Positions 1,293 through 6,241 of a DNA stretch of 64,000 nt are shown one piece after another. A program made the translations under genes and the position numbers. Source of the stretch: Maridesulfovibrio hydrothermalis AM13 = DSM 14728 (GTDB lineage Bacteria; Desulfobacterota; Desulfovibrionia; Desulfovibrionales; Desulfovibrionaceae); assembly GCF_000331025.1 (NCBI RefSeq), contig NC_020055.1, positions 3,567,370 through 3,631,369 on the forward strand. Direction: 5' to 3'. Below the pieces are notes generated by a model. It made no database searches. It was given only the letters and a program-made list of their open reading frames with translations, and had not been told where the DNA came from. Positions within the stretch are counted from its first letter, which is position 1; each line of letters starts with the position of its first letter.

Positions 1293-1769
1293 CTAATCTC
1301 TAAGCTTCTGTGCCAGCAAGCGCAGGTGGCCACGCTCCTCGTCAATACATTCTTCCACAAACTTCTGCTCAGTTTCTGGAACCATCCTTTTAAGTTCCGT
1401 GAAAAGCAGAATTGTGTCCTTTTCAAAACGCATAGCAGCGCGTACAGCATCCTCAAAAGTAAAATCTTCTTCTTTAAAAGCTGCTGTGTAATCAAAGTTG
1501 AAAACATCATGCGAATCAACAAGTGCCATTACATACTGAGTGTACTCTTCGTAATCGCTTCCCGGAGGAATTTCGATATTACCGAGACGGTCGCGCATTC
1601 CTCTGAAAAAAAGTTCATGCTTGGACTCTTCCTCGGCGAAAAAATCGAAAAACTCCTTAGCTGCGGGATCTTTTGCTTCATCAGCTGCAAGCAGATAGAA
1701 AGCCTGTCCCTTCTGCTCAATACGCATTGCTAGTTCAACAACTTCATTAGCACTGAAAAAAGTTACCAT
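1293..1769 (-). CDS. Ferritin-like/rubrerythrin-type di-iron protein
   Basis: A 158-residue all-helical protein of the ferritin-like superfamily. Two di-iron ExxH ligand motifs are visible, ESKH near residue 48 and ERGH near residue 146, with further Glu residues at EQKGQAFY and FEKDT that would complete a carboxylate-bridged site. It lacks the C-terminal rubredoxin CxxC domain of classical rubrerythrin, so it is the short erythrin or ferritin-family form. Such proteins in anaerobes usually handle peroxide or iron; the exact role here is inferred. The start is fixed by GAGGAG about 6 bases before the ATG. It is monocistronic and convergent with flgE. Confidence 0.8.
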   Translation of the reverse strand: MVTFFSANEVVELAMRIEQKGQAFYLLAADEAKDPAAKEFFDFFAEEESKHELFFRGMRDRLGNIEIPPGSDYEEYTQYVMALVDSHDVFNFDYTAAFKEEDFTFEDAVRAAMRFEKDTILLFTELKRMVPETEQKFVEECIDEERGHLRLLAQKLRD

Positions 1770-2117
1770 TTCAACTCCTCGTGGATTAAAATCTATTTTT
1801 AGGGATCACATTTTGTCTATTTTTTTTGGAAAAAAACAGCCGAATCTCTGCAAACAGATGGTCATTGGCGGTAATATTAAACACCGCGGACAAAAGTGCA
1901 ACCTGAAACCGTTATATATTTGCAAAAGTTGTCTTTTACATTTTTTCAATTCAGGATATAAAAAGATAATGGATTTATTTCTAAAAAAAATGCAAAAGAC
2001 TACCAGCACTGCATAAAATATGGACTGCTTTTATAATTATCTGAAATATAAGCATAAAACTTGCAACAATAATTAAAGAATATATAATCTTTTCCAGAAA
2101 TAAAAAGGGGAATCGTT
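1770..2117. other. Divergent intergenic region, AT-rich
   Basis: A 348-base spacer between the ferritin-like gene and the fusion gene at 2118. Short open frames occur on both strands around 1806-2016 but have no ribosome site and read as AT-rich noise. The only element I can support is the promoter at 2061-2088. Confidence 0.6.
2061..2088 (+). promoter_or_regulatory. Sigma-70-type promoter for the Hpt/aminotransferase fusion gene
   Basis: TTGCAA at 2061-2066 and a perfect TATAAT at 2083-2088, separated by 16 bases, end 29 bases before the start codon. A GGGG ribosome site at 2107-2110 follows. Confidence 0.65.
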
Positions 2118-3698
2118 ATGACTGAAGAATTACTTGAACTTGAAGATGTAGCCCTGCAAGGTTTTGTCGAACAATCACTGGACAAACTTGATCAGATTGA
2201 AAACGAACTCATGAAGCTTGAACAAAGCAAAGTGACTTCTCCGGCTGCTGTCGCTCAGGTTTACGGCATACTTGTTTCTCTAAAGGAAAGTGCCGCCCTG
2301 ATTGAGCTGCGCAACATCAGCGCTGTCGCCGGAGCTATCGGCAACATATTCGACAGAGTTTTCAAAAATGAAATTAAACTGAGTTCAGACCTTCTTAATA
2401 TAATTATTGATTCTTTTGACAAACTTAATGAGATGGTCAGTAACGCCACCCTGAGTGATGATTACGACATCCGCATTGTCACCCTCCCTTTAGAAGAAAT
2501 TGCTAAAAACGGTGTTGTACAGCCAGTTGAAGAGGATGAAGAATCAACCGGTCAATCCGCTCCCGCCCCGGTTGAAGAAATTGCCGAAGAAATTCCTCAC
2601 GCAGCCGAAGAATCCGTTGAAGCTGAAATTGCTGCCCCCCAAAAGACAGTGAAGCAAAGTATTCCCGCAACCCGCTTTCGCCAGAAGTACGGTATCAAAA
2701 AAGAAATAGACATGGCCAGCAATGCCAACCCTCTCGGCGTTTCCAAAGCAGTTTCAAATACCATAATTAATATGGCCAACAACTGCTGCGCCTTTGAAGG
2801 AGACGCTGTTTCCAGTCTAAAATTCGGGTTGGCGCAACGTCACGACATTCCGGAAGATTCTATCATTATAGCAAACACTGCTGTAGAACTGCTTGATCTG
2901 GCTTTACGCCTTTCAGCCATTCCGGGCGTGGATCATATTTTAAGCTATGAATACGGTCTGCCGGAATACAGCAGCGTTGCCGCCCTTTGCGGAGTTGAAC
3001 TTCTGAGACTGCCCAGATCACGTAACTTTTCTCCCCCGCTTGACCAACTGGTAACCACTGCCAATGAAAACACAGCGGCAGTTATTATCACAAACCCCGA
3101 CATCCCCTCCGGTTACGGTCTTCCAGCTGAAGAACTGGCCACGATGGCCAACCTGCTGCCGGAAAGAACCCTGCTCATCCTTGATGAAAAATATGTTGAA
3201 TTTGCATGGCCGGAAGATGACTACTCCATGATCAATTTCCTAAACAAAGCCCCCAACCTTGTTATCCTGCGCAGTTTTTCATGGTCCTTCGGATTGCGCG
3301 GAGTAAGCTTAGGCTACGCTCTTACCAGCCCTGAGCGGGTCAATTTTTTTGAGGAATCGAGAATTTCCAATCAGGTCAGCCCCCTCAACCTCGGAGCGGG
3401 ACTTGCGGCTCTCAACCATAACGAATTTTACTATTCAACAATAGCTTTGATCATCAGAGGTAGAGAAAGAGTTCAAAAAGGACTTAGCGAACTTGGCTGC
3501 ACGGTTTACCCCAGTCAGGGAAATTTTATCATGTTCAGTGCTCCGATTCCGGCAATGGAGCTGCACGCAAAGTTATATGAATTCGGTTTCAAAGTCAGTT
3601 CCCTAGAGGAGTTCGGACTTAAAGATATGCTGAAAGTTTCTATCAGCAACAATTCTAACAACCGTATGTTTTTAGCGGCAATGCGAAATATTCTTTAA
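2118..3698 (+). CDS. Degenerate Hpt-like domain fused to a HisC-type aminotransferase fold lacking the PLP lysine
   Basis: 526 residues in three parts. Residues 1-110 are helical and resemble the Hpt domain of CheA, but where CheA has the phosphorylated His of AHTLKG this protein has ILVSLKE, with Val53 at the His position. Residues 130-190 form an acidic, Pro/Ala/Glu-rich linker. Residues 190-526 follow class I/II aminotransferases of the HisC/CobD type: ASNANPLG, TNPDIPSGYGLP, LLILDEKYVEF, and SFSWSFGLRGVSLGY. In that last motif active enzymes carry SKAFGLAGLRLGY, so the Schiff-base Lys is Trp389 (codon TGG at 3282-3284) and the phosphate-binding Arg is Ser397. The C-terminal carboxylate-binding Arg is Lys506. 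Asp356 and Tyr359 remain. I infer a non-enzymatic role such as scaffold or ligand sensor, possibly tied to chemotaxis or two-component signalling. It is not a frameshift artefact, because the frame is intact throughout. Confidence 0.75.
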   Translation: MTEELLELEDVALQGFVEQSLDKLDQIENELMKLEQSKVTSPAAVAQVYGILVSLKESAALIELRNISAVAGAIGNIFDRVFKNEIKLSSDLLNIIIDSFDKLNEMVSNATLSDDYDIRIVTLPLEEIAKNGVVQPVEEDEESTGQSAPAPVEEIAEEIPHAAEESVEAEIAAPQKTVKQSIPATRFRQKYGIKKEIDMASNANPLGVSKAVSNTIINMANNCCAFEGDAVSSLKFGLAQRHDIPEDSIIIANTAVELLDLALRLSAIPGVDHILSYEYGLPEYSSVAALCGVELLRLPRSRNFSPPLDQLVTTANENTAAVIITNPDIPSGYGLPAEELATMANLLPERTLLILDEKYVEFAWPEDDYSMINFLNKAPNLVILRSFSWSFGLRGVSLGYALTSPERVNFFEESRISNQVSPLNLGAGLAALNHNEFYYSTIALIIRGRERVQKGLSELGCTVYPSQGNFIMFSAPIPAMELHAKLYEFGFKVSSLEEFGLKDMLKVSISNNSNNRMFLAAMRNIL

Positions 3699-3714: not shown

Positions 3715-4029
3715 ATGACTAAAACAATTTTTCTCATGATGCTTTTAGCCATGCTTGGAGGCTGCTCAGGTCATCCCACATCCATGCAGGATGTAACTTC
3801 CTACTGCCGGTCCCTGTCTACGGAGCCGGATTGCGATTCTCAAAGTTCAATTTGCGCGCAGTATTCTGAGATAACATTGCACCCATATAAATCAGCCGAA
3901 GAATGCCGGCAGGCTTGCGAAGAAGTGCGCCAGAATTCACTCCGCGCCACTGGCATGCTATCCTGCCAGCCTGTCTACCAGTCGGTTGAGGGTAAGTGTA
4001 ATGAATTTTGCAATTCAAATTACGAATAG
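3715..4029 (+). CDS. Small cysteine-rich lipoprotein of unknown function
   Basis: 104 residues. A hydrophobic signal peptide ends in a lipobox (LGGC, Cys17), so the mature protein should be lipid-anchored in the envelope. The mature part has eight further Cys residues, mostly spaced as likely disulfide pairs (YCRS, DCDS, ICAQ, ECRQAC, SCQP, KCNEFC). I do not recognise the family. It starts 16 bases after the upstream fusion gene, with CTTGAGG as a plausible ribosome site, so the two may be co-transcribed. Confidence 0.7.
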   Translation: MTKTIFLMMLLAMLGGCSGHPTSMQDVTSYCRSLSTEPDCDSQSSICAQYSEITLHPYKSAEECRQACEEVRQNSLRATGMLSCQPVYQSVEGKCNEFCNSNYE

Positions 4030-4174: not shown

Positions 4175-6241
4175 ATGTTGAAACGGCTGACTGTTGGGCA
4201 AAAAATTTTCTGTAGTTTTCTGGTTGTTTTTCTCCTCTTCGTAATTGTAGGTACGGAGTCGCTCGTTGCCTTGAAAAAGTCATCTTCAGGCTTCACCGAC
4301 TATCGTAATCTTGCAAAAGATTCCAATTTACTTGGTGAAATTCAAGCTGAAATCCTGCAAGGGCGAACTTATGTAAAAGATTATATTATCACCGGAGATA
4401 ACAAATACCGGCAAAAGTATGTCGATAGCATGAACACCCTTCAGCCGCAGCTGAAACTGGCAGAAGAGACCATGATCTCTGACAACAGAAAAGCTTTGGT
4501 GATTGAAACCACAAAAATGCTGGCTGAATTCAACACCAGCTTTACCGCGGTAGCTAAAGCGCAAAAGAAAAGAGAGGTCCTCGCCAACGACTCCATGATT
4601 CCTGAAGGAAACCTTATGGAGCAGACTTTTGAACAGATTATAGATAATCTCGGCAAAACGGGCAAAAACGCCCCCGCCCTGTACTGGTGCGCCAAGGGTG
4701 TGCGTAATCTGGTTTTAGGCCGCCTTTACGCAGCTAAGTATCTTGAAATAAGCGACGACCTGCACGCCTTGAGGTCTCTTGCTGAAATGGAAAAACTCCA
4801 AAGTGCGATTAACCAGCTTTCAAATATTTTAAGTAAATCAGACCTTCAAAAGCTGGAACGAATCAGGCAGGCAAGTGAAGAATATGTAAAAGCCATGACC
4901 GACCTCGTGACTACCACCGAGTATCGTGACAGGCTCATTAATTCAGAGCTTGATGTCATGGGGCCTAAGATGGCCGACCTGATTGAAAAAGCCAAATCAT
5001 CCGTCATATCTGATCAAGAGAAACTCGGCCCGAACTTGCAGTCACGCAATGATAGAGCCATTTCAAATGTTTACATTATCAGTTTTTTTGCTTTTGCCAT
5101 CGGCATAGGTGCTGCGTTTGCTATCGGCCGAGATATAACCCGCCCCCTGCGTAAAGTGGTGGATGCTGCATACCGCATAGCTGAAGGCGACATGACCAAG
5201 ACCATTGACGGTTCAGACCGGAAGGATGAACTGGGGTCGCTGGCTATGGCATTTAATAAAATGACCAGCTCACTAAATGAAATGGCTAAAGCAATGGAAA
5301 GAGTAGCTGACTCAGACCTGACCGTCACCGTTGAGCCGAGATCTGAAAATGACACTATCGGCAAAGCACTGGCTGTCATGGTTGAAAATCTTAAAGGGGA
5401 TAACCTCAAGATTAACGAGGCAGTAAGAGCCTTGTCCTCATCGCTCAGCCAGATCTCGGCAGCCTCGGCTGAACTGACTGCCAGCGCAGCTGAAACAGCA
5501 AGCGCAGTGGCCGAGACAAATGCAACTGTTGAAGAAGTCAAACAGACCGCCCACCTGTCTAATGAAAAATCCAGACAAGTGGCTGATGTTGCCCGCAAAG
5601 CTGTTTCCACCTCCCAACAGGGAAAGAAAGCCGCAGAGGACGCAGCATCAGGCATGAAAAATATCCGCACCCAGATGGATACCATTGCCCAGTCCATAGT
5701 TAAACTTTCGGAGCAGTCGCAGCATATCGGCGACATTATATATGTAGTGAACGACATTGCCGATCAATCAAATATTCTGGCTGTCAACGCTTCTATCGAA
5801 GCATCCAAGGCAGGGGAGGAAGGCCGCGGTTTCACCGTTGTCGCACGCGAAATCAGAAACCTTTCGGACCAGTCCAAACATTCTGTATCACAGATACAGT
5901 CAATCCTTGCAGATATTCAGAAAGCCACAAGCTCGGCGGTCATGATCACAGAAGAAGGAGGTAAAGCCGTTGAAACAGGCGGAAACCTGTCCTCACAAAC
6001 CGGTGAAGCAATTCTTAATCTCAGCACCGTGGTCAATCAGTCAGCACAGTCCTCCGCGCAGATAGCTGCTTCCAGTCAGGAACAGCTTGCCGGACTTGAT
6101 CAGGTTGCGGTTGCACTCGGAAGCATCAAACAGGCTGGAGAACAGAACCTCGAAAGCTCCAGACAGCTTGAAGAAGCTGTCAGAGACCTTGACCTGCAAG
6201 CCCGTTCACTTAAAAATATGATGGACCGCTTCAAACTGTAA
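4175..6241 (+). CDS. Methyl-accepting chemotaxis protein with long helical periplasmic domain
   Basis: 688 residues. TM1 lies near 8-30, followed by a periplasmic helical domain of about 260 residues (to ~290) that resembles helical bimodular (HBM) ligand-binding domains, then TM2 near 293-317. HAMP follows at ~318-370 with a second HAMP-like stretch (DSDLTVTVEPRSENDTIG). The cytoplasmic coiled coil contains the hairpin tip around IADQSNILAVNASIEASKAG and GRGFTVVAREIRNLSDQS. The tip is a divergent form of the usual [20 protein letters not shown]. No C-terminal CheR-tethering pentapeptide is present. The protein would signal to CheA/CheW; its ligand is unknown. The start follows AAAAAGGGA. It is transcribed alone and closed by a strong terminator. 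Confidence 0.9.
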   Translation: MLKRLTVGQKIFCSFLVVFLLFVIVGTESLVALKKSSSGFTDYRNLAKDSNLLGEIQAEILQGRTYVKDYIITGDNKYRQKYVDSMNTLQPQLKLAEETMISDNRKALVIETTKMLAEFNTSFTAVAKAQKKREVLANDSMIPEGNLMEQTFEQIIDNLGKTGKNAPALYWCAKGVRNLVLGRLYAAKYLEISDDLHALRSLAEMEKLQSAINQLSNILSKSDLQKLERIRQASEEYVKAMTDLVTTTEYRDRLINSELDVMGPKMADLIEKAKSSVISDQEKLGPNLQSRNDRAISNVYIISFFAFAIGIGAAFAIGRDITRPLRKVVDAAYRIAEGDMTKTIDGSDRKDELGSLAMAFNKMTSSLNEMAKAMERVADSDLTVTVEPRSENDTIGKALAVMVENLKGDNLKINEAVRALSSSLSQISAASAELTASAAETASAVAETNATVEEVKQTAHLSNEKSRQVADVARKAVSTSQQGKKAAEDAASGMKNIRTQMDTIAQSIVKLSEQSQHIGDIIYVVNDIADQSNILAVNASIEASKAGEEGRGFTVVAREIRNLSDQSKHSVSQIQSILADIQKATSSAVMITEEGGKAVETGGNLSSQTGEAILNLSTVVNQSAQSSAQIAASSQEQLAGLDQVAVALGSIKQAGEQNLESSRQLEEAVRDLDLQARSLKNMMDRFKL

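Follow-up and report, generated by a model that had tools for sequence, protein, structure and literature searches.

The window analyzed here is a stretch of 64,000 nucleotides from the genome of Maridesulfovibrio hydrothermalis AM13 = DSM 14728, and close to its start lies a gene in which an Hpt-like domain is joined to a HisC-like domain (Table 1). The frame opens with ATG and runs through 526 codons with zero internal stops, as had been claimed in an earlier interpretation of the bare letters, here called the sequence-only reading. That reading also credited the gene with a good ribosome site and a good promoter. The ribosome site is indeed there, as a purine-rich site 5' of the ATG in 17/17 fusion genes, taken with start codons that we picked. 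The promoter, TTGCAA/TATAAT with a 10/12 match to consensus, finds no alignment in the other 16 upstream regions, and was dropped as evidence.

Table 1. Features of the fusion gene and its neighbors, in window positions
Feature	Coordinates	Strand	Basis
Rubrerythrin-like gene, between flgE and the fusion	1293-1769	-	Pfam Rubrerythrin 3e-9; kept in 14/14 loci examined
Ribosome binding site AGGGGA of the fusion gene	2106..2111	+	Purine-rich site 5' of ATG, 17/17
Hpt-like/HisC-like fusion gene, 526 aa	2118..3698	+	Open frame; homologs in 17/17 listed genus genomes
Pseudo-Hpt domain, CheA P1 type, residues 1-130	2118..2507	+	Pfam Hpt and CheA_Halo matches, profile, alignment, model helices
Val53 codon GTT, phosphorylated-His position	2274..2276	+	Codon reading and alignment
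Linker, residues 131-184, acidic, variable	2508..2669	+	23% mean identity, median dN/dS 0.75, low pLDDT
Pseudo-HisC domain, residues 185-526	2670..3695	+	Pfam, TIGR01141, predicted structure, Foldseek
Trp389 codon TGG, PLP-lysine position	3282..3284	+	Trp in 17/17 genus sequences
Ser397 codon AGC, PLP-phosphate Arg position	3306..3308	+	Arg in 15/17 genus sequences
Lys506 codon AAA, carboxylate Arg position	3633..3635	+	Thr in 15/17 genus sequences
Small Cys-rich lipoprotein-like gene, 104 aa, next 3' of the fusion	3715..4029	+	Adjacent in 16/16 genus genomes
Methyl-accepting chemotaxis protein, 688 aa, 4HB_MCP_1/HAMP/MCPsignal	4175..6241	+	Adjacent in 16/16 genus genomes

Directly downstream of the fusion, the best matches to the lipoprotein and to the receptor sensor are found together in 16/16 genus genomes, and the adjacent chemoreceptor suggests a link of the fusion to chemotaxis. 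The lipoprotein-like gene has zero Pfam or NCBIfam matches; by our own reading its product has eight cysteines beyond the lipobox cysteine. Two other genera (g9 and g25) have weak relatives of it, with a maximum of four copies in a genome. Outside the genus, 36 genomes have sensor domains of this receptor type at 21-33% identity, and no fusion was found there, which weighs against the adaptor reading set out below.

Upstream of the fusion, a flgE-like gene lies beyond the rubrerythrin-like gene in 13/14 loci examined. The outer flank is changed in just two of the 14: L085 has lost both flgE and the usual right flank to other sequence, and L081 has a different right flank, and in each the rubrerythrin, fusion, lipoprotein and receptor genes are still together. 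Gene-order conservation within the genus is largely shared descent. Because the rubrerythrin-like gene is kept in every locus examined, L085 included, the chemoreceptor is not the sole fixed neighbor of the fusion, and a redox or oxygen response instead of chemotaxis, with the rubrerythrin-like neighbor marking the role, has to be weighed. We consider that very unlikely, as the rubrerythrin-like gene is on the opposite strand, hence not on one transcript with the fusion, and the Hpt half points to histidine-kinase signaling.

Distribution and constraint

The genus is one of relatives of Desulfovibrio, and the fusion is encoded in 17/17 of its listed genomes, the seventeenth of which (G327) has DNA identical to that of L009 over the 3,390 bases compared. 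When the protein is searched against 199 genomes from the bacterial family, matches extend along both halves in 16/16 genus members and in G023, a genome of another genus. For G140 the search match begins at residue 129, yet the frame covers the full fusion; the other family matches listed are HisC-like and start at residue 142 at least. When a profile of the Hpt half is searched against 348 genomes of the order, the 17 genus genomes and G023 come out on top at E = 8.7e-43 or better, and the next match is a CheA at 3.6e-27. Among matches of E = 1e-45 or better in a 395-genome sample of the phylum there is no further fusion, the other matches listed starting at residue 177 at least, in a search that a very divergent Hpt part could escape. 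Relatives of HisC occur in plasmid records, but coverage of the fusion reaches 80% in 0/230.

Averaged across 45 pairs from one set of 10 genomes, identity is 75% for the pseudo-HisC part, 77% for the real HisC, 63% for the Hpt part and 23% for the linker. The respective median dN/dS values are 0.05, 0.06, 0.10 and 0.75, with dS saturated in 36, 28, 34 and 23 of the 45 pairs, for which reason the identities are the safer measure. Both domains of the fusion are under strong sequence constraint. The sequence-only reading would have been refuted by orthologs with the normal His and Lys, and there are none among the 17 genus sequences or G023. We reject a single decayed copy or an assembly error, to which we allow next to no chance: we found no support for it beyond the loss of Arg397 and Arg494 in the window and in L015, which could look like decay, and against it stand full-length open frames with Trp389 in 17/17, together with a median dN/dS of about 0.05-0.10 in both domains, read from pairs most of which have saturated dS.

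The Hpt-like half

Searching each half separately had been proposed as a check. The Hpt half is weak alone, Pfam Hpt scoring E = 0.0056 and 17.3 bits, under the gathering cut-off of 24.6, with CheA_Halo matching at 2.2e-8, and it becomes clear as a 13-row profile, which contains the G023 sequence. The top match of that profile is 6ff6, named BRIC1, and the profile also matches the CheA P1 chains 2ld6 (1.2e-9), 1tqg (2.9e-9) and 1i5n (2e-8). It finds CheA proteins of the same order at 82-96 bits (the 4/4 checked carry Hpt, H-kinase_dim and HATPase_c) and stand-alone Hpt and Hpt-STAS-like proteins at 67-81 bits.

A structural model from the genus sequences only has a mean pLDDT of 54 and was set aside. 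Adding relatives of HisC and Hpt to a total of 85 rows gives a mean pLDDT of 89.9, for a fold that leans on rows of our choosing, HisC rows included. Helices are predicted at residues 3-36, 42-61, 65-82, 90-108 and 119-131, followed by a linker (pLDDT below 50 at residues 135-163 and 168-170) and then an aminotransferase fold. The match to the P1 profile and the long helices, with pLDDT 92-97 over residues 11-130, make this half a P1-type helical bundle.

Residues were compared in an alignment of the 17 genus fusions, G023, 50 HisC rows (of 56 fetched) and 17 Hpt rows. The position of the phosphorylated histidine is His in 17/17 Hpt rows aligned, or 21/22 with five left-out stretches counted. 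It is His in 0/17 genus fusions (V 7, L 7, T 1, I 1, F 1) and Asp in G023, so the sequence-only reading was right to see Val53 in the window as a loss of the phosphorylation site. The loss extends to the second histidine (position 72), present in 17/17 Hpt rows and 0/17 genus fusions, and to the equivalent of Glu75, which is Glu in 17/17 Hpt rows and in none of the genus fusions (Gly 16, Ala 1). Lys56 is kept in 17/17 genus fusions. Glu57, found in 17/17 genus fusions and G023, is Gly in 16/17 Hpt rows. G023 combines Asp53, Leu72 and Ala56 with a retained Glu75.

The half is accordingly like CheA P1/Hpt (PF01627) in its helical bundle, its profile matches to P1 structures and its Lys56, and differs in that the genus fusion lacks the phosphorylatable His, the second His and the Glu, and has no kinase core. 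With the Hpt fold kept, the His lost and the sequence under constraint, it has what defines a pseudo-HPt. Hpt-STAS-like proteins from other genera of the bacterial family (L070-L073, L076 and L077, frames of 373-533 residues) also join a related Hpt domain to a non-kinase C-terminal part, but they retain the Hpt His, and STAS_2 is above cut-off in 3/6 and below it in 3/6. The window's genome has its own CheA (L143:568-3501; C2 about 2153567-2156500) with Hpt, H-kinase_dim, HATPase_c and CheW domains; a third Hpt-like stretch in it, residues 388-468, has Val for His, which makes it the one exception among the 22 stretches counted above and, from its sequence, a second pseudo-Hpt in this genome. 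A protein designated DVU1420 is tabulated as 'Hpt domain protein' in the excerpted text of PMC11784015, and is named here by that label alone.

To our knowledge, no enzyme-like fusion is known among the pseudo-HPts of plants. Those proteins (AHP6, OsPHPs) resemble the fusion in having an Hpt fold without the His and a role in signaling, and differ in being plant proteins; lacking the His, they interfere negatively with their pathway, according to the excerpted text of PMC5975490. By that precedent the fusion might be purely a phosphorelay decoy, with the pseudo-Hpt competing with a real Hpt or P1 and the pseudo-HisC being a dimeric carrier that has no ligand. The phosphorylation residues are gone from a domain that is otherwise kept, as a decoy would have it, but the pseudo-HisC is the better conserved half, and a passive carrier would need no such conservation. 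We regard this explanation as unlikely.

The HisC-like half and its origin

Aminotran_1_2 of Pfam matches this half at 2.5e-31, and TIGR01141 hisC matches residues 185-526 at 5.4e-53 with 180.1 bits, below its curated cut-off of 276.55. The best 50 Foldseek matches of the model, which was built with HisC rows, are all HisC or related PLP-fold enzymes, the best being 3ffh at 1e-24 and TMt 0.86, so that the aminotransferase fold proposed earlier from the letters stands. The half is 31-40% identical to HisC proteins from its bacterial family. These matches place the half in aminotransferase fold type I, HisC subgroup. It differs from HisC in lacking the PLP lysine, in having most of its cofactor and substrate residues changed, in falling below the TIGR01141 cut-off, and in being joined to an Hpt-like domain.

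Residue 389, Lys in 50/50 HisC rows, is Trp in 17/17 genus fusions and Arg in G023, which upholds the loss of the PLP lysine. Also changed in 17/17 are Asn329, Asp256, Phe281, Tyr226 and Arg506 of HisC, the last to Thr in 15 and to Lys in the window and L015; Ser255 is changed in 15/17 and Tyr359 in 14/17. Asp356 is retained in 17/17, Ser388 in 16/17 and Arg397 in 15/17, the exceptions at 397 being Ser in the window and Gly in L015. The window fusion retains Tyr359 and has lost Arg397. Residue 494 is basic in 15/17 (Arg 9, Lys 6). Ser397 and Lys506 had been put forward as defining losses, and as family hallmarks they are rejected by the 17 genus sequences. Positions 397, 494 and 506 are changed jointly only in the window and its sister L015 (Ser/Gly, Ser, Lys), which suggests, as far as an alignment can, a pair in which the pocket went on changing and was reshaped.

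There are 78 HisC columns with at least 90% conservation among the HisC rows, of which we took 12 to be PLP or substrate columns after HisC/AAT structures. With that list, loss in the genus consensus is concentrated in the active site, 8/12 versus 19/66 other columns (Fisher p = 0.019), and in the window fusion 9/12 versus 21/66 (p = 0.0081); in the G023 fusion, 7/12 versus 21/66 is not significant (p = 0.1). The sequence-only reading held that both domains had lost their defining chemistry with the folds kept. That is borne out, and the loss is wider than it saw, taking in His72, Glu75 and the eight HisC residues.

We take Asp356, Ser388, Arg397 and the others to be PLP phosphate-cup, ring-stacking and O3' contacts, roles assigned after HisC/AAT structures. 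As a set these contacts are not preserved: the three named are mostly kept, and the rest are mostly lost. Since the losses go beyond the lysine to the phosphate cup, the ring-stacking residues and the O3' contact, PLP appears an unlikely ligand of the pseudo-HisC. Some anion binding may remain, given that 15/17 still have Arg397 and 15/17 a basic residue at 494. A changed enzyme or sensor, still active or PLP-binding and using the fold without a Schiff-base lysine, would draw on the residues that remain at 356, 388 and 397, but with Asp256, Phe281 and Asn329 lost in 17/17, Tyr359 in 14/17, the lysine gone, and Arg397 missing in the window too, we give it a small chance.

The HisC part branches from within the HisC proteins of its bacterial family, and its stem is long, at 1.43 changes per column. 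In the HisC-part tree the genus clade has 100/100 support with G023 as sister at 94/65, and in the Hpt-part tree G023 and the genus clade are grouped at 80/84; in each tree long branches meet, and the AU test does not reject a tree in which G023 groups with its own HisC (p = 0.318). We infer that one origin of the fusion in the genus and G023 is favored, because the architecture and Glu57 are common to both.

Derivation from a HisC duplicate raises the idea that the fusion is a regulatory partner of real HisC, forming heterodimers as lysine-less SPT1/LCB1 does with SPT2 and linking signaling to histidine synthesis. The window's genome does keep a HisC with the lysine, 35% identical to the fusion. 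The equivalent of the inter-subunit Tyr of HisC is Tyr in 0/17 genus fusions. SPT1, without the PLP lysine, is needed for serine palmitoyltransferase activity, as given in the excerpted text of PMC6148460. SPT1/LCB1 is thus like the fusion as a PLP-fold relative that lost the lysine and is still kept, and differs in that it serves within a working enzyme as one of the subunits and is no signaling fusion. The long stem and the missing Tyr argue against a HisC partner, as does the position of the fusion gene, a long way from hisC and with a chemoreceptor gene as a fixed neighbor, and we think it improbable, about on a par with a retained PLP function.

A candidate signaling adaptor

Homology of both halves, loss of both active sites in 17 genus sequences, the constraint on both domains and a fixed place next to a chemoreceptor gene in the genus support a conserved double pseudoenzyme that is probably tied to signaling. 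The reading that we prefer, at a probability of roughly 0.47, is a non-catalytic adaptor in which the pseudo-Hpt would dock on histidine-kinase or chemotaxis machinery and the pseudo-HisC would dimerize or sense a ligand. A CheA-P1-type Hpt domain would have been fused to a duplicated HisC, and after fusion both parts would have been stripped of their chemistry. The pseudo-Hpt could then replace a real P1 or Hpt on a histidine kinase, CheA or a receiver domain, carrying no phosphate, whether to dock there or to act as a decoy. The HisC fold would supply a stable dimer and a remodeled pocket that may bind a small non-PLP ligand, and ligand binding may tune the array served by the neighboring chemoreceptor.

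The fusion gene of G023 is followed on its strand by one for a GAF-PAS-HisKA-HATPase-REC hybrid kinase, and neither a receptor nor a lipoprotein match was found in G023 at the thresholds used. With a hybrid kinase there and a chemoreceptor in the genus, a plausible partner of an Hpt-like domain is therefore next door in both lineages. The G023 sequence itself tells against the adaptor reading, having Ala for Lys56, keeping Glu75, and showing no significant concentration of loss in the active site.

A more specific form would be a cytoplasmic metabolite sensor, the stripped HisC and Hpt plugging into a chemoreceptor array by way of the phosphate-free Hpt, as part of a three-gene module with the Cys-rich lipoprotein and its own receptor. 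We hold this to be doubtful, somewhat better placed than a pure decoy. Retention of the rubrerythrin-like gene in L085 lowered the adaptor reading from 0.50 to 0.47, took a little from the metabolite-sensor case, and added the redox alternative.

In a search of open-licence papers no publication on an Hpt-HisC fusion was found, and the sequence-only reading likewise knew of no described system joining these folds. Hpt domains without the His and PLP-fold proteins without the lysine are each known separately, as in the sources cited above. What the fusion shows is the loss of two unrelated active sites in a single protein, which is conserved nearly as strictly as the working HisC. The fixed gene neighbors of the fusion are the first candidate partners. 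Should the fusion regulate chemotaxis, the array would have a cytoplasmic input that is not a kinase and carries no phosphate, and the protein would be a clear example of how an enzyme of biosynthesis can be turned into a sensor.
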